From contig NZ_NIRT01000008.1 in NCBI RefSeq assembly GCF_003207795.1, positions 62,001-126,000 on the forward strand: a stretch of 64,000 bases of DNA. Direction: 5' to 3'. The position numbers and the translations under genes were made by a program. The notes under the pieces were generated by a model, which was given only the letters and a program-made list of their open reading frames with translations, had not been told where the DNA came from and searched no databases. This document shows, in pieces, positions 2,408 to 60,517 of the stretch. Each line of letters starts with the position of its first letter. Within the stretch, counting starts at the first letter, position 1. This DNA is from Komagataeibacter nataicola (lineage in GTDB: Bacteria; Pseudomonadota; Alphaproteobacteria; Acetobacterales; Acetobacteraceae).

Positions 2408-2482
2408 GGCGGTGTAGCTCAGCGGTAGAGCAGGGGAATCATAATCCCTTGGTCGGCGGTTCAAATCCGTCCACCGCTACCA
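2408..2482 (+). tRNA. tRNA-Met (CAU), elongator type
   Basis: A complete 75-nt cloverleaf. The acceptor stem GGCGGTG pairs with CACCGCT (first pair G-U), followed by discriminator A and an encoded CCA. D-arm GCTC/GAGC, anticodon stem GGGGA/TCCCT with loop ATCATAA (anticodon CAT), and T-arm GGCGG-TTCAAAT-CCGTC all fold. It lacks the three G-C pairs at positions 29-31/39-41 of initiator tRNA, so it is an elongator. A lysidine-modified tRNA-Ile2 with the same anticodon is less likely from its sequence but not excluded. Its 3' half is duplicated at 6851, showing use as an integration site. Confidence 0.92.
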
Positions 2483-2491
2483 TCTGCGTTA
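2437..2491. repeat. attL: left direct repeat inside tRNA-Met
   Basis: A 55-bp stretch from the anticodon loop through the tRNA 3' end and 9 bp beyond is repeated without mismatch at 6851-6905. Such identity between a tRNA 3' half and a downstream copy is the usual scar of tyrosine-recombinase integration at a tRNA anticodon-loop site. The intact tRNA lies on this side, and the integrase remnant is the nearest element gene, as is typical. Confidence 0.88.
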
Positions 2492-2579
2492 GGATTGATT
2501 TTCCTACATTTTTTATGCTTTTTCAGACCCATTACCGGCCCCGGTGATTTGCGGCTTTAGCACTGCGCGCTCCCCTGTT

Positions 2580-3247
2580 TTAGCACTCCCCTGCTCCAAA
2601 CGGTATTGAGTGACCTTTGTTGCGGCACTCTGCGCGCGGCGCTTTTTGGCTTGCCTCACGCACGTAGCGGCTGACCATGGCCGGGCTGGTATGGCCAGTG
2701 ATGGCCATGATCTCGCGTTCGGAGCACCCGGCCTCTGCCATCCACCTCGCCACCGTCGTTCTCAGCCCATGCGTGACAATGCCGGTCAGGCCTGCCGCGC
2801 GGATCTGCGCGCCCATCTCGTGCCGGAAATGATCGATTTTCCACGGCCCCCATCTGCCCGGGTCAGGATTGTTTCGGCGTTGTGGCGGGACATTGTGTCC
2901 AGTAGCCGCCTGCCCTGCTCATGCAGAGGAATCCAGACTGGCGCTTTGGTCTTGAGCTGGACGACATAAATCCCCTCCCCATCATAATCTGACCATTTCA
3001 TCCTGATCAGATCCTGACCGCGTTGGCCAGTCGTGTAGGCCAGAATGACGGCATGGCGGATGTCGTCGGTCGTGGTGCTCGCTCCCAGCATGGTCGCCAA
3101 CTCCACATCGGACCAGGCACGGTATCCGCCCAACGTCTTGAGCTTTGGCACGCGAAGCGCCGGGTTGTCCGGTCGCCATTCCCGATTAACCGCCCAGGTC
3201 AGGAGGATCGACAGAACGGCAATTCTGGTTTGAAGATGGCATAGCAA
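2580..3247 (-). pseudogene. Tyrosine recombinase (integrase), truncated and frameshifted
   Basis: Remnant of a phage/island-type tyrosine integrase. The first frame (3247 down to about 2850) carries the catalytic-domain arginine box TGQRGQDLIRMKW. The second (about 2850 to 2580) carries THGLRTT (the H-x-x-R box), AITGHTS and the likely nucleophile Tyr in MVSRYVRE. The frames join at a five-C tract (2847-2851 on the plus strand). A sixth base would restore a sequence reading DGGPWKIDHFRHE, so a one-base loss is the simplest explanation. The N-terminal DNA-binding domain is missing, and the remnant begins about 40 bp past the stop of the GGDEF-EAL gene. It points toward attL, the usual place for the island's own integrase. 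Confidence 0.85.
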
Positions 3248-3289
3248 ACACGGCCGACAATCCTTTTCTGAAATGCCGGCCGCGTGACG

Positions 3290-5188
3290 TCAGGCCGGAC
3301 GACCGATATGGAAACCCTGCATATAACGAAAGCCCAACGTCCGTAGCTGGTTCTGTTCAGCCTGCGTCTCCACCCCCTCGATAATAACCATTTTGTCCAG
3401 CCTTTTGCCCAGATCGGCCATAAGGCGCAGCACATCCACCGTATGGCCATGGGTGCCCATGGTTTTCACGAAGCCACGGTCGGTCTTGATGATGTCAAAC
3501 GGCATGATGCCGAGATGCGAGAGCGAACTGCGACCGCCGCCAAAGCTGTTGATCGCAATCCGTGCGCCCGCACCGCGCAGGGCGGCAAGATGGCGGACGG
3601 AAGCGTCCATATCCGGCAGCAGGGCGTCCTCGGTTATTTCCAGCACAATCCATTCAGCCTTCGCACCGCTTATGGCCAGCAGTTCGCGTACCTGTCGCGG
3701 CATGTCGGGCTGGCGAAGCTGGTTCGCGCTCAGATTGATATGGGCTGCGATTTCATACCCCGGTGCCTGGTCACGATTGAAGGCCACAACATGGCGCAGC
3801 GCCTGTTCCAGCACCCAGTTGCCAATAGGAACGATCAGACCTGTTTCTTCTGCATTGCGGATAAAAGCCGCCGGGTCATGCAGCACGCCGCGCCGGTCAC
3901 GCCAGCGCAGCAGGGCCTCATGTCCTACCACGCGGCCAGCCTGCACATCCACGATGGGCTGGTAATGCAGCAAAAACTCGTTGCGTTCCAGCGCATCGGG
4001 CAATTCACCCTGCAAGATCAGCGCGTGATGCATGCGTGCCAGCAGGTCGGGTGTAAACAGGATAACCCGGTCGCCACCACGACGCTTGGCTTCATACATG
4101 GCGAGATCGGCATCGCGCACGATATCAGCCGAGGATTTATGGTCGTGATCGGACGTGACAATACCGATACTGGCGGAAGGCCGCAGGTGATGCCCATCAA
4201 TCACCATTTCCGCCTCCAGTTCCTGACAGATGCGCGCACCGATCTTCTCAAGGGCGGCTTGGTCGCGCGGGCCGGTCATGATGGCGGTAAATTCGTCACC
4301 GCCCAGACGGGCGATAAAGCAGTTCTGCTCGGTATCGAACACGCGACGCAAACGGTTGACGATCTCGATCAGGAACATGTCGCCTGCATGATGGCCGAAG
4401 CTATCGTTCACCATCTTGAACTTGTCCAGGTCGATGAACATTACCGCATGATCGTGGCCAGTTTTCCGGTCGCGCTCCATGATGGCATCCAGCCGCGCAA
4501 GAAAAGCCTTGCGGTTGGGCAGGCCGGTCAGCGCATCATGCGTGGCCTCGTGGCGCAGGAGATCAGCGGTCTCCCGCCGTTCGAGCACATGAGACAGCTG
4601 ACGCGCGATGTTGGAGAACATGGCCAGCGTATAGGGATCGCTTTCGTGGCGCGACAGGGCATCGAATTCAAGTACCATCGCCATGCGGCCACTCACCATG
4701 ACCGGCACCATCAGTACGGTCTGCATGCCTGAGCGGGTACCCTCACCCACGAGCCACAGAGGCGCTGACTCGATCTGCAAACGTGAGCAGATGCTGGGCA
4801 ATAGCGCATTGTCAGACCCGGTAGGCAGTGCACGGCCGGCAGCCGCATTCTCATGTCCGGAAAGATGGCTGGCCAGACGGAACACCCGGCCGCTGCCCTT
4901 ACTGTCCGGCAACCATGCCAGTGCCATGCACCATGGCCCCATCTCGCAGGCCTGCGAAAAAGCAAAGCGGACGATGTCCTCCACTGACAGGCCACTATTG
5001 GCCTGGGCGGCAACCGCCTCCATCAAGGCCTGCTGGCGATTACGCGCATACAGCTGGCTCAACCCGTCCTCCGCGATGCGTTCAGCTTCCATGCGCACTT
5101 CGCGTTCGCGCTCATAACGGCGGCGGATGCGGCGGTACAGGGCTTCATAATCCGTTACTTCTGTCTCCGGTCCAGAATTGATGGTCAT
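3290..5188 (-). CDS. GAF-GGDEF-EAL protein, probable diguanylate cyclase with degenerate EAL
   Basis: A 632-residue cyclic-di-GMP enzyme: N-terminal coiled coil (about 10-50), GAF-like sensor domain (about 55-205), GGDEF domain (about 210-375; motif RLGGDEF ending at 300) and EAL domain (about 390-630; EALLRW from 424). The GGDEF signature is intact, but the feedback I-site RxxD is absent, with ExxC in its place. In the EAL domain N485, E517, K568 and E604 are present, but the conserved loop-6 metal-binding Asp pair (DDFGTG) reads NSFGGG at 547-552, so phosphodiesterase activity is doubtful. The ATG at 5188 overlaps the H-NOX stop by 4 nt (a GTG at 5194 is possible), indicating translational coupling to a heme NO sensor. 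The C-terminus ends at QGFHIGRPA, close to the domain border. Confidence 0.85.
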   Translation of the reverse strand: MTINSGPETEVTDYEALYRRIRRRYEREREVRMEAERIAEDGLSQLYARNRQQALMEAVAAQANSGLSVEDIVRFAFSQACEMGPWCMALAWLPDSKGSGRVFRLASHLSGHENAAAGRALPTGSDNALLPSICSRLQIESAPLWLVGEGTRSGMQTVLMVPVMVSGRMAMVLEFDALSRHESDPYTLAMFSNIARQLSHVLERRETADLLRHEATHDALTGLPNRKAFLARLDAIMERDRKTGHDHAVMFIDLDKFKMVNDSFGHHAGDMFLIEIVNRLRRVFDTEQNCFIARLGGDEFTAIMTGPRDQAALEKIGARICQELEAEMVIDGHHLRPSASIGIVTSDHDHKSSADIVRDADLAMYEAKRRGGDRVILFTPDLLARMHHALILQGELPDALERNEFLLHYQPIVDVQAGRVVGHEALLRWRDRRGVLHDPAAFIRNAEETGLIVPIGNWVLEQALRHVVAFNRDQAPGYEIAAHINLSANQLRQPDMPRQVRELLAISGAKAEWIVLEITEDALLPDMDASVRHLAALRGAGARIAINSFGGGRSSLSHLGIMPFDIIKTDRGFVKTMGTHGHTVDVLRLMADLGKRLDKMVIIEGVETQAEQNQLRTLGFRYMQGFHIGRPA

Positions 5189-5715
5189 AGCCACTTCACC
5201 CGCAGCATGTTTTCTTTGCCAGATCCGGGTGGGAAACGCTCGACTTCAACCCTGTCGCCAAATACATCGGCCGCACCGAGCACAAAGCCCTGCGCCAGGT
5301 CGATCAGGTGGCGTTCGGAACTGTAAGTCATGTCCAGCGTGCCATCATCGTTTTCCTTCATGTGGAAATACGGACACATCGCGCCGGGATAGAGCTTTCA
5401 CACTTCGGGATGGATGATGCTGTTCACGCTCAGGATAAAGCTGCGCGAATTGGGATGCGTACTGAACAGTTCCGGATAGCGTTGCTTGAGGATGGGCATG
5501 GCATCCCGCCCGAAACTGTGCAGCAATTCGGCCGGTGTAATACCCAAGTGCTTTGAAGCTGCGACTACCAGCGCCTGCATTTCCGCATCAGGGTAGCTGC
5601 CCAGCGAAGTATAGGCGCCGCTGACATTGGCGGCCTCCAGCAGGGTATCCCATGCTTCCGCGCCGTGGTTCTTTTCCACGACCTCTTCCAGAATATTAAA
5701 AACAATACCCTTCAT
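5185..5715 (-). pseudogene. H-NOX heme NO/O2 sensor with in-frame TGA
   Basis: Heme nitric-oxide/oxygen-binding (HNOB) domain protein, normally a stand-alone gas sensor controlling a neighbouring c-di-GMP enzyme or kinase. The opening MKGIVFNILEE, the TSLGSYPD segment, the proximal-His region SIIHPEV and the heme-propionate motif Y-S-S-E-R (YxSxR) are all recognisable. After codon 105 (the V of HPEV) the frame has TGA at 5398-5400 where homologues usually have a basic residue before KLYP. The same frame then continues KLYPGAMCPYFH and runs to a normal end, giving 176 codons. CGA to TGA is a one-base change. A site like AGAGG precedes the start. The product would lack the propionate-binding half, so I call it a pseudogene unless the stop is read through or is a sequencing error. 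Confidence 0.85.
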
Positions 5716-6019
5716 TATTCCACAACCTCTTGTAATATATATTCATTTTAAAGATGTATCGTGGATATGTAATAATGATGCATTCTGATGTCACTTTATG
5801 CCTTGTATGTGTTTTTCGCATATCTAATCGATTTTTCAGAAATCCAGGAAATCGTATGCTGAGCATAAGACTTAAAACTATACGAAGAATTCGCGGTTTC
5901 CTCTAAAATTTCGAACCATTACAGTCATTATTGCAATAAATAAACCTGTCATTTATTCATATTAAAAATATGTGTTATGGACTCGTAATAACATAATTTG
6001 CAGCATATTTTTCCTCCCT
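5716..6019. other. AT-rich intergenic region upstream of H-NOX
   Basis: About 300 bp, strongly AT-rich compared with its neighbours and without a credible gene. It presumably contains the promoter of the leftward H-NOX/GGDEF-EAL pair. I see no clear NnrR/FNR box. One perfect short palindrome is listed separately. The right side is abruptly ended by the IS5-family inverted repeat, so upstream regulatory DNA may have been displaced. Confidence 0.5.
5855..5867. promoter_or_regulatory. Possible operator palindrome upstream of H-NOX
   Basis: TATGCT-G-AGCATA is a perfect 6-bp inverted repeat around one base, about 140 bp upstream of the H-NOX start in otherwise low-complexity AT-rich sequence. It could bind a dimeric regulator, but a 13-bp palindrome can arise by chance and no second copy is seen nearby. 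Confidence 0.2.
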
Positions 6020-6840
6020 TTCAGGGACTGTTGGGAATTGAGTTTTCTAAAGGACCATGATGTGTTTCAAAGACCATATGGATCGCTTCATACTGACGGA
6101 TGCCCAATGGGCGAAAATGGAACCGCTGTGCCTTGGCAAGAAGACGGATCGGGGACGCAGCGGGAAGGATAACCGCCTCTTCATCGAGGCGGTCCTGTGG
6201 ATTGCCCGGACGGGCAGTCCGTGGCGGGACCTGCCGACGTATTTCGGACATTGGAACTCGGTTTATTCGCGCTACAGCGACTGGACGAAAGCCGGTGTTT
6301 TCCAGAAGATTTTCGAGGCCGTCTCCGATGATCCCGACATGGAATACGCGATGATTGACGGCACGGTGGTCCAGGTTCACGGCCAGGGCGCAAAAGGGGG
6401 ACCCGAAGCCAGGCGATAGGGCGGAGTGTAACGGGATGGTCAACGAAGATCATCGCCATGACCGACGCGCTGGGTAATCTGGTCCGCTTCACGCTGATCC
6501 CCGGCCAGCATTACGATACGGTCGGCGTTGCGCCTCTTCTCGAACCGGCGGATTTTAAAGGAATTCTTGCTGACAAGGCATTCGACGTCCACTGGATCGT
6601 GGACGCCATACGCGCGCAAGGGGCCTGCGTGGCCATCCCCCAGCGCAAAAACCGCCTCGACAGACGCCCGTTCGATGGGACCCTGTTCAAAGCACGCCAT
6701 CTCATTGAGAACTTCTTCTGCAAGCTCAAGGAGTTCAAGCGCATCGCCATGCGCAGCGAAAAAACAGACAGGTCATTCGAAGCCATGTCTATCTCGTTGG
6801 CGCAATCATCAATTCAAGATAATTCCCAACAGGCCCTGAA
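6020..6840 (+). mobile_element. IS5-family insertion sequence (about 821 bp)
   Basis: Delimited by imperfect terminal inverted repeats: TTCAGGGACTGTTGGGAATT at the left and, on the opposite strand, TTCAGGGCCTGTTGGGAATT at the right (one mismatch in 20). It encloses a two-frame IS5-type (IS427-like) transposase. No clean target duplication is visible: the flanks read TCA on one side and TGA on the other, so the ends may have recombined since insertion. It lies 10 bp from attR. The IS1031 family described from Acetobacter xylinum also belongs to IS5, but I cannot confirm identity. Confidence 0.8.
6078..6822 (+). pseudogene. IS5-family transposase, two frames with C-terminal deletion
   Basis: The N-terminal frame (MDRFILTDAQW onward, with AMIDGTVVQVHGQGA carrying the first catalytic Asp) stops at 6419. 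The rest (QAIGR, GWSTKI, MTDALGNLV, then ADKAFD with a second Asp and the HLIENFFCKLKEFKR box) is in the +1 frame. The junction contains AAAAGGGGG, a plausible slippage tract, so frameshifting could be programmed as in some IS5 relatives. A further defect lies after 6787: the usual ending FEAMIYLVGAIINSR is recovered only by adding one base, and without it the frame runs through the IS end into attR. That makes this copy probably inactive. Confidence 0.72.
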
Positions 6841-6850
6841 GAAACAGGAA

Positions 6851-6905
6851 AATCATAATCCCTTGGTCGGCGGTTCAAATCCGTCCACCGCTACCATCTG
6901 CGTTA
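6851..6905. repeat. attR: right direct repeat of the tRNA-Met 3' half
   Basis: Perfect 55-bp copy of 2437-2491, beginning in the anticodon loop and ending 9 bp past the encoded CCA. It has no 5' tRNA half, so it is an attachment-site remnant and not a second tRNA gene. The preceding bases CAGGAA match CAGGGG of the true tRNA only partly, which fixes the left limit of the identity block. Confidence 0.88.
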
Positions 6906-7290
6906 TGGTTTATTTTCAAGGACTTGGTATATTGATACAGCCTTTTTATGGGGCTGATGCCAGTCACTGGATTTTCCCCTTTTTTCAAAAACGCCAGTCA
7001 CTCCCCTCACCTGCTGCTCTGCATCAGGAGATCAGGCAGGAAACTTGATAATGACGTTTACAGCGGCATGGGTTTCGCGCTCCAGCTTCCTCCCTAACCG
7101 CCACAATGCACAATCCTTACGTGCCGCGCTCCTTCAGGCCTGCCGCGCGATCTGTCTACTTATGTATTTGCATCGCGCAGGCCCATTCATAAAGCAATAT
7201 CCAGACGTGCTTGCATTTTGAGCAGAGCCTCCCCAGGTAGCCCTGAAAAAAGCATGCTGAAGCTCAGCGTAAATTATGCCAGAACCTTCT
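6906..7290. other. Intergenic region right of the island
   Basis: About 385 bp between attR and the stop of the leftward LprI-like gene. I find no convincing coding frame, RNA gene or terminator. Short frames here lack ribosome sites and family features. Confidence 0.5.
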
Positions 7291-8592
7291 TTACTGGCCA
7301 CACTGCCCGTTAATGTACTGGCCAAAGCCCGACGCTCCCCAGCCCACAAAAAGCTGCTTCACCGCCACGTTGCGCATGGCGTGCAGCCCCTCGGCAGCAT
7401 ATTTGCCATCGCAGTTGAACTTGCCGTTGAGAATGTAGTCCTCTGTTTCATGCTTCCTGAGCGCATCCCTCCAGTTTGCATAAGCATTGAGGGCCTTCTC
7501 ATCCACCACCGGAGCATAGACTTCAATATTTACGTAATCCTCGGCATGGGATCCCTGTTCCATCAGTCCGATATTGGGATCAGCGGCATTACCGCAGCTT
7601 TCAAGGCAATCGGAAACCGGCCTGGCATTGCCATTCAGCGCGGCACTGACATCGCCAAGTGTCAGTTCAGCTACCGTAGGGGTGGAATTCTGGATGAACG
7701 GTGTCAGTGGCACTGAGCAGGACGGGGTTATTTTCAGCCCGTAGCCCTGAATTTTCCCTCCCTGTTCATAGGCTGTCAGTTCACAGTTTTTGACCATGTA
7801 AGTATAGGTGGTTGTCTTGTCTGAATAGTGGTTCACATATTTGGCTGGTCCCGTGAACTGCTCAAGAAAGGGGCGCTGGATACCCAACATGTCCAGCTGA
7901 AATATCCGCAGCAGGGGCGGCGCGCTCGTATCACTGCTCAGGGAGGGCTCAGGCGGCTGATTAGCCCAGCGCACGGCGCGCGAGATGCCAAGTTTCTGAA
8001 CATGAGGTACTTCATCATCCGAAATCGCGCCCGTCTGCTCATCTCCATAGGCAGCCTGCCAGGTTTTGATGGCCGTGCGCATGGCATCGCCATAAAGGCC
8101 ATCGGCCTTATCCATGGGGGAAAACGAATATCCGGCATTGATGAGTTTCTGCTGCAGGGCGATGTGGAGGTCAATATTGCGCGCGGCTTCCTGCGCATAG
8201 GGGCCGCTGAGGGATTCTGCCCACTCAACAGCCTGCTGCTCCGTTACCTTCACGTAGCATGAAGCAGCCCCCGATGGCATGACCGCGCCCGGCGTGCCCG
8301 CTGCGGGAATGGCGCAGGCATTGCGCAATGCCGTATCATAGGCAACGGCCTGCGCCTTGATGGCCTGATAGGCCCCTGCCCCTTCCTGTCCACGATGGGC
8401 ATAGAATACTTTTTCAAGGTCCAGTTCAGCTTTCGCCATGACCGGATCATTACACAGCGCTGTGGCCAGAACATCGGCCCCATCAGGGCGGGGACAGGCA
8501 AAACCGGGATGATAGTCCGGGGCGGCAAAAGCCGGTACCCAAAGGAGCATGACAGACAGAAAACTGCCACTCAACCAGCCAAAAATGCGCAT
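7291..8592 (-). CDS. Secreted LprI-like protein with peptidoglycan-binding domain
   Basis: A 433-residue exported protein of unknown function. A Sec signal peptide occupies residues 1-23 (cleavage near AFA-APD). Next is a Cys-containing helical segment (C-x-R-P-D, LCNDPVMAKAELDLEKVF, a Tyr/Ala-rich helix, NACAIP) that resembles lysozyme-inhibitor LprI/DUF1311 repeats. Residues about 142-185 resemble a PG_binding_1 fold (LQQKLINAGY, DGLYGDAMRTAIKTWQ). The C-terminal 220 residues are not recognised but contain paired cysteines suited to periplasmic disulfides. A periplasmic cell-wall role is plausible from the architecture only. It stands alone between the island and an IS remnant. Confidence 0.6.
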   Translation of the reverse strand: MRIFGWLSGSFLSVMLLWVPAFAAPDYHPGFACPRPDGADVLATALCNDPVMAKAELDLEKVFYAHRGQEGAGAYQAIKAQAVAYDTALRNACAIPAAGTPGAVMPSGAASCYVKVTEQQAVEWAESLSGPYAQEAARNIDLHIALQQKLINAGYSFSPMDKADGLYGDAMRTAIKTWQAAYGDEQTGAISDDEVPHVQKLGISRAVRWANQPPEPSLSSDTSAPPLLRIFQLDMLGIQRPFLEQFTGPAKYVNHYSDKTTTYTYMVKNCELTAYEQGGKIQGYGLKITPSCSVPLTPFIQNSTPTVAELTLGDVSAALNGNARPVSDCLESCGNAADPNIGLMEQGSHAEDYVNIEVYAPVVDEKALNAYANWRDALRKHETEDYILNGKFNCDGKYAAEGLHAMRNVAVKQLFVGWGASGFGQYINGQCGQ

Positions 8593-9039: not shown

Positions 9040-9831
9040 TCAGAAAGCAGTTTGATTGATTTTTTGCAAAACTCTGCGGATACGGGCAATCATCAACCAC
9101 GCGTGGGATGACGAGATTGTTGCCTCGACATCCTTCGGGAGGAGGCGGCAGCGTCCGAGCCATGCAAAGCTGCGCTCCACGATCCAGCGTTTCGGTAGGA
9201 GGACGAAGCCTTCGGCCTGATCGCTACGCCTGACGATTTCGATCGTCCATCGGCCGAGTTCAGCCAGCGCGCCACGCAACTTCTCGCCAGCATATCCACC
9301 GTCACCGATCAGATGGCGAAGTCAGGAGAATAATGAACGTATTCTGGTTGCTACCAGCGGCGCATCATCACGATCCGGAACGTCGGCAGGATGCACGACA
9401 GCCGCCACGACATGACCCAGCGTGTCGGTTGTGATTTGCCGCTTGCGGCCCCTGATCTTCTTGCCCGCGTCATAACCGCGTGGACCGCCGTTTTCAGCAG
9501 TTTTAACCGACTGGCTGTCAATAATGCCTACCGAAGGCGTGGCGTCTCGCCCGTCCTGCTCACGCGACAGGATCACGAGAATAGGGTTCATCGCTTCCCA
9601 TCGTCCCTCGCGGATCCAACGGTAGAAATAGCAGTGACGAGGCAACCGCCGCCATTGGCAGCCGGTCGTGACGATATGGAGGATCGCCTCCATCGCCCGG
9701 CGCAAATCCGTACGTCATGGTCTGCCCAGTCGTTTCTTCTCGGGCATCAAAAGCGCAATCAGCGCCCACCCTGCATCGCGAAGGTCGCTTGCATATTCCA
9801 GGTCGTCCCTTTGATACTGCGCGCGGGTCAT
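9040..9831 (-). pseudogene. IS5-type transposase remnant with two nonsense codons
   Basis: One continuous reading frame from ATG 9831 (MTRAQYQRDDLEYASDLRD) to the stop at 9040 encodes an IS5-type DDE transposase: IIDSQSVKT (first Asp), RKRQITTDTLGHV, IGDGGYAGEKL (second Asp) and WIVERSFAWLGRCRLL (the Glu box). It is interrupted by TGA at 9715-9717, after KKRLGRP, and by TGA at 9322-9324, where relatives have Trp in FPWLRHL. Clear terminal inverted repeats were not found. It is unrelated in detail to the IS at 6020 and appears long dead. Confidence 0.8.
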
Positions 9832-58369: not shown

Positions 58370-60517
58370 TCAGGCATGAGACAGGATGCTCTGGCGGATC
58401 ATCTCCGATGGCTGCGGGCGACCGAGCAGGAAACCCTGCACCTGGTTGCAGCCAAGCGCGTTGAGGTGCGTCCACTGGTCGTGTGTTTCCACGCCTTCCG
58501 CCGTGATGGGAATGTCCATGCTCTGGGCCAGGCTGATGATGGCGCGGATGATGCCCGCAGCCCCGCGCTCGGGCAGTTCCTGCACGAACGAGCGGTCAAT
58601 CTTGATTTTCTGGAAACGAAACGAGCGCAGGTAGCCCAGCGAGGAATAGCCGGTGCCGAAATCATCAAGCACGATGCTGCACCCGATCTGGCCCAGCCTG
58701 TGCAGGATGTCGCGATTGGTGGCGCTGTTCTGCACGAAGATGTTTTCGGTAATCTCGACCTCAAGCCGCGCTGGCGCCAGACCTGAGCACGCCAGCGCTC
58801 CTTCCACAATGCTCAGGAAGCGCGGATTGCGTAGCTGGATGGGCGAGACATTGACCGCAATACGCACCTGCTCGGGCCAGCCTGCCGCCTCGAGGCAGGC
58901 GGCCCGCAGCACCCATTCGCCCAGATCGTGGATCAGGCCGTTCTCTTCCGCAAGGCCCACGAACTGGTCGGGCGGGATCATGCCGCGCTCGGGGTGGTGC
59001 CAGCGCACCAGCGCCTCACACGCGCTGATGCGGTTGCCCGGCATGGAATAGAGCGGCTGGAAGTGCAGCGTCAGCGCATTGCCCGCAATGGCCGCGCGCA
59101 GCTCGTTGCCCAGGCGCGCGCGGGTCTGGATTTCATCGCGCAGGTCGGCATCAAAGAACTGGAAGCCGTTGCGCCCGAGCGACTTGGCGCGATAGAGCGC
59201 AATATCGGCATGCTGGAGAAGGATCTCGGCACTGTCGCCATCCTGCGGGTACAGCGCGGCACCGATACTGGCGCCAATGACGATATGGTGTCCGTCGATG
59301 ATGTAGGGCCTGCTTGCGGTCTCGACAATCTCTCGCGCGCGGCCGGTCAGTTCGGCGGGGTCAGGCACATCGGGCCAGATGATGGCGAATTCGTCTCCAC
59401 CCAGCCGCGCCACAAGGTCTTCGGGGCGGCTGCATGCCAGCAGGCGGGCGGAGACCAGCCGCAGCAGCGTATCGCCCGCCGCGTGGCCATACACGTCATT
59501 GACGGTCTTGAAGTAATCCAGGTCGATGCACAGCAGCGTCGCGCTCAGGCCGGGGGCGCAGAGGGTCTCGAGCCGGGCGGAGAACAGGGCACGGTTGGCA
59601 AGGCCGGTCAGCGGGTCGTAATGGGCAAGCTGCTCGACACGGTGCTGGGCGTTGCGCTGTTCGGTCACGTCATCGGCCACGCACATCTCCCACCGTGCGC
59701 CGCCACGCTCATCGGTAATGGTGACATGGCGGGTGGCAATGGCGCGCGCCGTGCCATGGTGGTCGCACAGAACCTGCTCCGTCGCCTGCTCGCGCCCTGC
59801 CGCGCGGCTGAGCAGCAGGTGGCCGATCTCGTCAGCATCGAATACATCATCGACCTTGCGCTCAAGCAGCAGGTCGCGCGTGCAGCCCATCATCTCCTCG
59901 GCCGCGCGATTGACCAGCACGGGGTGGTCATCGCGCGTGGAGCGCACGATCAGGGCGGAGGGAATGTTCTCGACAATGGTGTCGATGAACAGCTTGTCAC
60001 GCAGAATGCGTTTATTGGCCCGGCGCAGGTCTTCCGCCGCCGCCTTCAGCCCCGAGGCGGAGGCCACGGCGTGGGAATGCGAGGCGTTGATCAGATCCAG
60101 CGCCGAGCCCGTGCCGTGATAGCGCCCCGCCTTCGTTACGATATAGCCGCGCATGAGGTCGGAGGGCTGGGTCATGAGCGCGCGCGCCGTAAACTCGGCG
60201 GAGGGAATATTGGCATCGATCATGACCGGGCGGTCATCCATCAGCAGCGCGACGGGGCGGCGGTTGAACAGCGCATGGCCAAACCGGCCCGATACCTTGA
60301 GGAAGAAGGCCTGCCGCTCCACCAGGCCCACCGGCGCGTCGTGTTCATCCACCACCGCCACCAGCATCAGCGCCGGGTCATTGTGAAACAGTTCGAACAG
60401 CCGCTCGCCCAGCGCATCCGGCCTGAGCACCGGCCCCTGACATGCAATATCGCCCATGGTCATGAAGGCCGACGGGGCTGGCGGGGCGGCGATATCGTTC
60501 ATCATGCAATGTTCCAC
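58370..60517 (-). CDS. CBS-PAS-GGDEF-EAL cyclic-di-GMP regulator
   Basis: A 715-residue soluble protein: CBS-like region (about 25-145, with GLVERQAFFLKVSGRFGHALF), a helical linker, PAS-like domain (about 175-285), GGDEF domain (RLGGDEF ending at 377; I-site R364-PE-D367 intact) and EAL domain (CEALVRWHHP from 500; DDFGTGYSSL at 618; LEVEITE; AEGVET; QGFLLGRP). All catalytic motifs are conserved, so it could make and/or degrade c-di-GMP, the activator of cellulose synthase in acetic acid bacteria. Ends 268 bp before metA. Divergent from the phosphohexomutase gene. Confidence 0.9.
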   Translation of the reverse strand: MEHCMMNDIAAPPAPSAFMTMGDIACQGPVLRPDALGERLFELFHNDPALMLVAVVDEHDAPVGLVERQAFFLKVSGRFGHALFNRRPVALLMDDRPVMIDANIPSAEFTARALMTQPSDLMRGYIVTKAGRYHGTGSALDLINASHSHAVASASGLKAAAEDLRRANKRILRDKLFIDTIVENIPSALIVRSTRDDHPVLVNRAAEEMMGCTRDLLLERKVDDVFDADEIGHLLLSRAAGREQATEQVLCDHHGTARAIATRHVTITDERGGARWEMCVADDVTEQRNAQHRVEQLAHYDPLTGLANRALFSARLETLCAPGLSATLLCIDLDYFKTVNDVYGHAAGDTLLRLVSARLLACSRPEDLVARLGGDEFAIIWPDVPDPAELTGRAREIVETASRPYIIDGHHIVIGASIGAALYPQDGDSAEILLQHADIALYRAKSLGRNGFQFFDADLRDEIQTRARLGNELRAAIAGNALTLHFQPLYSMPGNRISACEALVRWHHPERGMIPPDQFVGLAEENGLIHDLGEWVLRAACLEAAGWPEQVRIAVNVSPIQLRNPRFLSIVEGALACSGLAPARLEVEITENIFVQNSATNRDILHRLGQIGCSIVLDDFGTGYSSLGYLRSFRFQKIKIDRSFVQELPERGAAGIIRAIISLAQSMDIPITAEGVETHDQWTHLNALGCNQVQGFLLGRPQPSEMIRQSILSHA

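Follow-up and report, generated by a model that had tools for sequence, protein, structure and literature searches.

The 64,000-nucleotide stretch of Komagataeibacter nataicola analysed here (contig NZ_NIRT01000008.1, positions 62,001–126,000; hereafter the window) carries, next to a tRNA-Met gene, a two-gene operon encoding an H-NOX protein, a member of a nitric oxide (NO) sensor family, and a GGDEF-EAL protein of cyclic di-GMP (c-di-GMP) signalling. The reading we favour, with moderate confidence, is that this locus is a collapsed tandem of two prophages of different types, A and B, with a horizontally acquired H-NOX operon between them, in which the H-NOX gene is broken. The two prophages would have stood in tandem at tRNA-Met before collapsing. 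What the sequences show directly is the horizontal transfer of the operon, the truncated H-NOX and the two left ends; in order, the locus holds a left end of A type with its integrase broken, the operon, an insertion sequence (IS), the second copy of the phage attachment site (att) and a 170-bp stretch of B-type left end. For comparison we used 19 Komagataeibacter genomes, one per species, including the window's own (G000) and 18 others; these were draft assemblies, and sequence reads were not used. Two of them are named below: G310 is K. xylinus CGMCC 21569 and G299 is K. diospyri MSKU 9.

Architecture of the tRNA-Met locus

The features of the locus are as follows.

2408..2482, plus strand: tRNA-Met (CAT), the phage attachment target, the whole gene standing at the left junction (ARAGORN; same 75 bp in relatives)
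2437..2491, plus strand: att copy 1, 55 bp, which starts in the anticodon loop and runs 9 bp past the tRNA
2492..3217, minus strand: A-type left end with a broken tyrosine integrase, frameshifted and without its N-terminus (Pfam, PHROG, DNA identity)
3218..6018, minus strand: H-NOX/GGDEF-EAL module, its left edge common to G309 and G310, its right edge interrupted by the IS near 6018
3290..5194, minus strand: GAF-GGDEF-EAL protein, 634 amino acids (Pfam); GGDEF present, NSFG replacing DDFG in the EAL motif
5185..5715, minus strand: H-NOX gene with an in-frame TGA at 5398–5400 (PF07700 in both pieces)
6024..6836, plus strand: IS4/5-type IS with its transposase in two pieces (PF13340, PF01609); terminal repeats within 6020–6039 and 6821–6840
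6841..6850, plus strand: 10 bp resembling prophage right ends, a weak match owing to its shortness
6851..6905, plus strand: att copy 2, the junction to the next prophage
6906..7075, minus strand: B-type prophage left end, integrase gene lost; 78–79% identity to the B left ends of G310, G135, G308 and G303
7291..8592, minus strand: peptidoglycan-binding-domain (PGB) gene (PF01471), the right-hand chromosomal flank of the clade

The two att copies are identical over all 55 bp, and a 32-base piece of the repeat, with up to three mismatches allowed, had two matches in the window, against none in any of 100 shuffles. The 3' part of tRNA-Met is thereby repeated directly at both ends, as in an integrated island or prophage, and directly inside the tRNA-proximal copy lies the integrase remnant (2580–3247, minus strand, two frames). 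PF00589 was matched in both frames, one piece scoring 27.0 bits (cut-off 27.1) and the other 40; the remnant also matches a PHROG integrase and shares 76.6% DNA identity with the A-type prophage of G308. The integrase reading frames of G308 and G310 are intact. All the parts listed by a first-pass annotation of this DNA, namely exact 55-bp repeats at tRNA-Met, an integrase remnant, GGDEF-EAL and H-NOX genes and an IS, were recovered by ARAGORN, repeat search and Pfam. Its proposal of site-specific integration at tRNA-Met is likewise supported.

What follows the distal att is a B-type left end and not chromosome (170 bp; score 164, highest shuffle score 26), so that att copy 2 joins two prophages. 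The 10 bp ahead of it read GAAACAGGAA in the window, AAAATAGGAA in G310 and GAAATAGGAA in G303; those of G308 are less alike. The IS is flanked by TCA and TGA, with no exact target duplication. The first-pass annotation had overlooked this B left end, as well as the H-NOX stop codon, the tailed-phage nature of the integrase and the altered EAL motif.

Two further features of the window lie outside the module: a second split IS4/5-type transposase at 9040–9705, between the PGB and DUF2075 genes (PF01609 in both pieces), and another GGDEF-EAL gene at 58415–59668 with 35% identity to that of the module.

Prophages at tRNA-Met across the genus

The tRNA-Met region was matched in 19 of 19 genus genomes. 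Apparently complete elements lie between att copies in G308 (type A, 42 kb) and G310 (type B, 40 kb). One such prophage per type was read, and ten A-type and eight B-type proteins were scanned against PHROGs. Both types encode an integrase, DnaB helicase, terminase, portal, major head protein, tape measure and baseplate. In A a tail sheath was matched as well, a protein that the B scan did not cover. The flank of tRNA-Met was readable in 17 of the 19 genomes (G300 and G304 were unreadable at that copy), and every one of these 17 carries an A or B left end scoring above the maximum of 100 shuffles. This count includes G308 (A) and G310 (B), which supplied the templates and match by construction; the weakest match was that of G302 (38 against a shuffle maximum of 27). 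A B-type left end was also found in G073, from another genus of the family. Judged from these sequences, tRNA-Met is an integration hotspot for tailed temperate phages of about 40 kb, of at least two types sharing one 55-bp att. On contig C16 of G067, also from another genus, tRNA-Met is accompanied by two more partial copies (places 51183 and 46264), so the hotspot may be wider than the genus.

These prophages change the meaning of the repeats. The first-pass annotation took them to bound an island carrying the H-NOX/GGDEF-EAL pair; they instead serve as att for two or more tailed prophages, and neither of those read contains the pair. It had also proposed a search of relatives for empty sites, which was answered in part. 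H-NOX is absent from 13 of the 19 genomes, and module-free tRNA-Met sites occur in G303 and others; in G303 the order is tRNA, att and B left end, with a piece of a conserved segment (segment X) nearby and no H-NOX. A pristine empty attB was not found among the 17 readable flanks, all of which hold phage sequence. A 20-kb piece of A-type prophage DNA had no near match in a set of 50,697 phage records, a search that did not compare it directly with the published Komagataeibacter phages. The left end and integrase matched phage records at the tRNA part only.

Transfer of the module between species

We compared synonymous divergence (pS) of the module with that of core genes in both flanks, that is, genes near one locus. 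We dropped matches that did not reach E 1e-20, alignments shorter than 100 codons and open reading frames (ORFs) whose nonsynonymous divergence (pN) was at least half of pS, mostly spurious antisense ORFs. Among the three xylinus-like genomes, module pS was 0.071 for G000–G310 (core minimum 0.170, n=15), 0.063 for G000–G309 (0.081, n=16) and 0.074 for G310–G309 (0.134, n=15). Against G281 it was 0.150 for G000 (0.336, n=16), 0.156 for G310 (0.332, n=14) and 0.160 for G309 (0.348, n=15). Not one core gene fell below the module in any of these six comparisons. The pattern is reversed against G299, where module pS is 0.581 for both G000 and G310 and the core maxima are 0.531 (n=16) and 0.517 (n=14), respectively; a slow synonymous clock of the module genes therefore does not explain their low pS. 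On these figures, the module has moved among the xylinus-like genomes and G281 since these species diverged, and the variant in G299 is older. The module pN/pS of 0.11–0.15 among the xylinus-like genomes, beside core medians of 0.08–0.10, suggests that selection kept the module while it spread.

Between G000 and G310, the integrase remnant is 90.6% identical and the noncoding DNA upstream of H-NOX 88.3%, a similar divergence. We had considered that the integrase remnant might be older than the module, which would speak against co-transfer; this came from a first figure of 87.5%, and was rejected once global alignment gave 90.6%, like the noncoding DNA of the module.

Distribution and decay of the pair

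H-NOX was found in six of the 19 genus genomes and in 15 of 299 family genomes, the window's own counted. The six genus copies occupy three kinds of site. Four lie at tRNA-Met (G000, G309, G310 and a 53-residue stub in G135). The G281 copy lies about 600 kb from its tRNA-Met, and its GGDEF-EAL homology stops at residue 144, beyond which stands a transposase homologous to that in G309. In G299 the pair has anmK on one side and, on the other, a gene found 36–240 bp from anmK in six of nine relatives read; the other three (G000, G309, G222) have other DNA beside anmK.

Both reading frames are open in G310. H-NOX has a stop codon in G000, GGDEF-EAL is interrupted in G309 by an IS whose transposase is recognised by Pfam, and the copies of G281 and G135 are truncated. 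G299 has a frame break within a G run of the GGDEF motif, possibly a sequencing error, and was scored as uncertain. As the assemblies stand, the tally is four clearly broken copies out of six, with one uncertain.

How the operon reached the locus

Our preferred history of a collapsed A–B tandem leaves room for more than one vehicle. That the operon arrived at tRNA-Met with, or into, an A-type element has, in our estimate, a little less than an even chance; the main alternative to such arrival would be homologous recombination into an existing prophage remnant. An A-type vehicle would fit the A left end and module shared by G000, G309 and G310, followed rightward by att or B sequence in two of them, and the comparable ages of the integrase remnant and the noncoding DNA of the module.

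The same data bear on another proposal, essentially that of the first-pass annotation: an integrative element with the H-NOX/GGDEF-EAL pair as its own cargo inserted at tRNA-Met, and the two repeats are its ends. The window pair does lie between an A-type attL with integrase and an att preceded by prophage-like right-end bases, the A-type left end accompanies the module in the three xylinus-like genomes, B left-end sequence stands to its right in G000 and G309, and its noncoding DNA and the integrase remnant are similarly diverged. We nevertheless regard this proposal as unlikely. Neither the A nor the B prophage read contains H-NOX or this GGDEF-EAL gene, and one single-protein scan of viral contigs, which finds close relatives only, returned no H-NOX relative. 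No att was found right of the module in three of the four tRNA-Met copies (G309, G310 and G135; E 1e-4), and two of the six copies (G281 and G299) sit at other loci; a cargo held between the two repeats is not supported in the form first proposed.

All but the last of these points weigh against the collapsed tandem as well, and the copies at other loci speak against an A-type vehicle, as do the prophages read and the viral-contig scan. Others must be added. The right boundary could be a product of rearrangement, since only about 10 bp of a prophage right end is left. The 95% range of module pS for G000–G309 (0.043–0.085) reaches the lowest core gene (0.081). The H-NOX stop could be a sequencing error, the G000 assembly being a draft of 105 contigs. 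Lastly, the direction and magnitude of the response of the cyclase to NO, discussed below, are proposals.

The DNA to the right of the module invites another explanation, in which the pair is resident clade DNA to the right of tRNA-Met, next to which prophages inserted, and homologous recombination exchanged it between species. In G310 and G135, segment X and the PGB gene follow the module with no att, and both also follow it, again with no att, in G309. A PGB homologue is present in all seven clade genomes, the window's included; in the six nearest relatives it lies near a DUF2075 gene and is 81–88% identical in protein sequence. Against residence, G222, G303 and G308 belong to the same clade and lack H-NOX, and a piece of B integrase, 80 bp long, separates module from segment X in G309, where an IS fragment also lies right of the module. 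Synonymous divergence of every core gene compared on either side exceeds that of the module, so that a segment exchanged by recombination would need its ends near the module. We hold this explanation to be improbable. Its strict form, a resident chromosomal module and nothing else, was rejected on the G309 B-integrase sequence together with the module-free G303 locus.

Three observations on these flanks may be added. The DNA left of the module edge at 3218 differs among G000, G309 and G310, though the edge is common to them. The PGB gene diverges more between near relatives than the neighbouring DUF2075 gene (94–96% protein identity), and a close homologue of it is found in only seven of the 19 genomes. 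The ORF in segment X had no Pfam match.

Finally, the operon might have been moved by insertion sequences, together with which it would form a composite unit. In three genomes (G000, G309 and G281) the module borders on IS DNA; the IS ends of G309 and G281 are related (79% identity) and meet the module at a matching distance, and the G281 IS matches an IS4/5 transposase. The IS of G000 is different, however, with 38% protein identity to the G281 transposase, and the window transposase was unmatched near the G310 and G299 copies, where other IS were not searched for. We give this mechanism little credence, and retain the collapsed tandem as the best account of the locus.

State and predicted function of the pair

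The H-NOX and GGDEF-EAL genes overlap by 10 bp on the same strand. PF07700 scores above its cut-off in both pieces of the window H-NOX, with a genome-level match of 141 bits (cut-off 25.5). A proximal histidine and a YxSxR motif are the haem motifs of H-NOX proteins. In the window the TGA follows residue 105, beyond His102 and ahead of the YSSER motif, and no single polypeptide contains both. Full-length frames with the histidine and the YxSxR motif are present in G310, G309, G281 and G299, and a PDB sequence search with the intact G309 protein matched solved structures of H-NOX (best E 9.8e-23).

The partner protein has the GGDEF motif and has kept the EAL glutamate. The DD pair of EAL domains binds the catalytic metals. 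Where the PDB homologue 5m3c has DDFG, the window protein reads INSFG, and the same replacement of DD by NS is found in all four copies that retain the EAL part (G000, G310, G309 and G299); the H-NOX-adjacent GGDEF-EAL genes of G064, G092 and G139, from two other genera, have DDFG. The EAL domain is thus probably catalytically dead and, because it lacks the DD pair, the partner is probably a cyclase only.

Where the pair is intact, as in K. xylinus CGMCC 21569, NO would bind the H-NOX haem and alter the activity of its GGDEF neighbour as a cyclase. From what is known of these families, c-di-GMP would likely fall, and cellulose synthesis with it, in the manner of the Legionella system described below. 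In the window's strain, NO control is predicted to be lost and the cyclase to be deaf to NO, because H-NOX is cut after residue 105, before YSSER. The first-pass suggestion that NO-controlled regulation has spread horizontally thus survives in one half: the pair has moved within the genus, as judged from pS and from its presence in six of the 19 genomes, where it occupies three kinds of site, and 'NO-controlled' cannot hold for this strain, its H-NOX being truncated.

An inverted repeat, TGTTAT-N9-ATAACA, lies at 5973–5993, upstream of H-NOX and roughly 260 bp from its start; it is kept in the G310, G309, G135 and G281 copies and is possibly an operator.

Comparison with known systems

No work on H-NOX was found in the titles and abstract openings of the literature searched on Gluconacetobacter, Komagataeibacter and Acetobacter, and NO control of cellulose in Komagataeibacter appears unexplored there. 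The pair is a c-di-GMP protein linked to NO sensing, moving between species and breaking, whose patchiness can be traced. We tentatively propose a wider picture, which is doubtful as a whole: an NO-sensor/cyclase cartridge, a cyclase-only switch with a dead EAL domain, may circulate among cellulose-producing acetic acid bacteria, partly via the tRNA-Met hotspot, and be repeatedly discarded through independent lesions after acquisition. Such circulation, if real, would account for some of the patchiness in c-di-GMP genes across the genus. Mobile DNA carries H-NOX genes elsewhere too: H-NOX-like DNA with 60–80% identity was seen on five plasmids of Sinorhizobium and Bradyrhizobium, predicted to be conjugative.

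As for the prophages, phiKX1, phiKX2 and phiKM1 are temperate myovirus-type phages that we take, by their names, to come from Komagataeibacter. The temperate myovirus-type phage phiAP1 of acetic acid bacteria has a tyrosine integrase and inserts at the 3' end of tRNA-Ser (PMC8566455). It resembles the present prophages as a tailed temperate phage at a tRNA, whereas the att here lies in tRNA-Met.

The gene pairing itself is known from other bacteria. In Shewanella woodyi, the H-NOX SWOO_2751 is paired with SWOO_2750, a diguanylate cyclase/phosphodiesterase (DGC/PDE) whose DGC and PDE activities are both described as regulated (PMC8738867); the EAL domain of the window protein lacks its DD pair. 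The nearest described system is that of Legionella pneumophila, where H-NOX1 (lpg1056) adjoins the DGC/PDE lpg1057, whose PDE domain is described as likely inactive and whose cyclase is inhibited by H-NOX with NO bound (PMC8738867). The window pair shares with lpg1056/lpg1057 the adjacency of H-NOX to a GGDEF-EAL partner whose EAL domain here lacks conserved catalytic residues. It differs from the Legionella pair in being found in acetic acid bacteria, among prophage remnants and with a truncated H-NOX.

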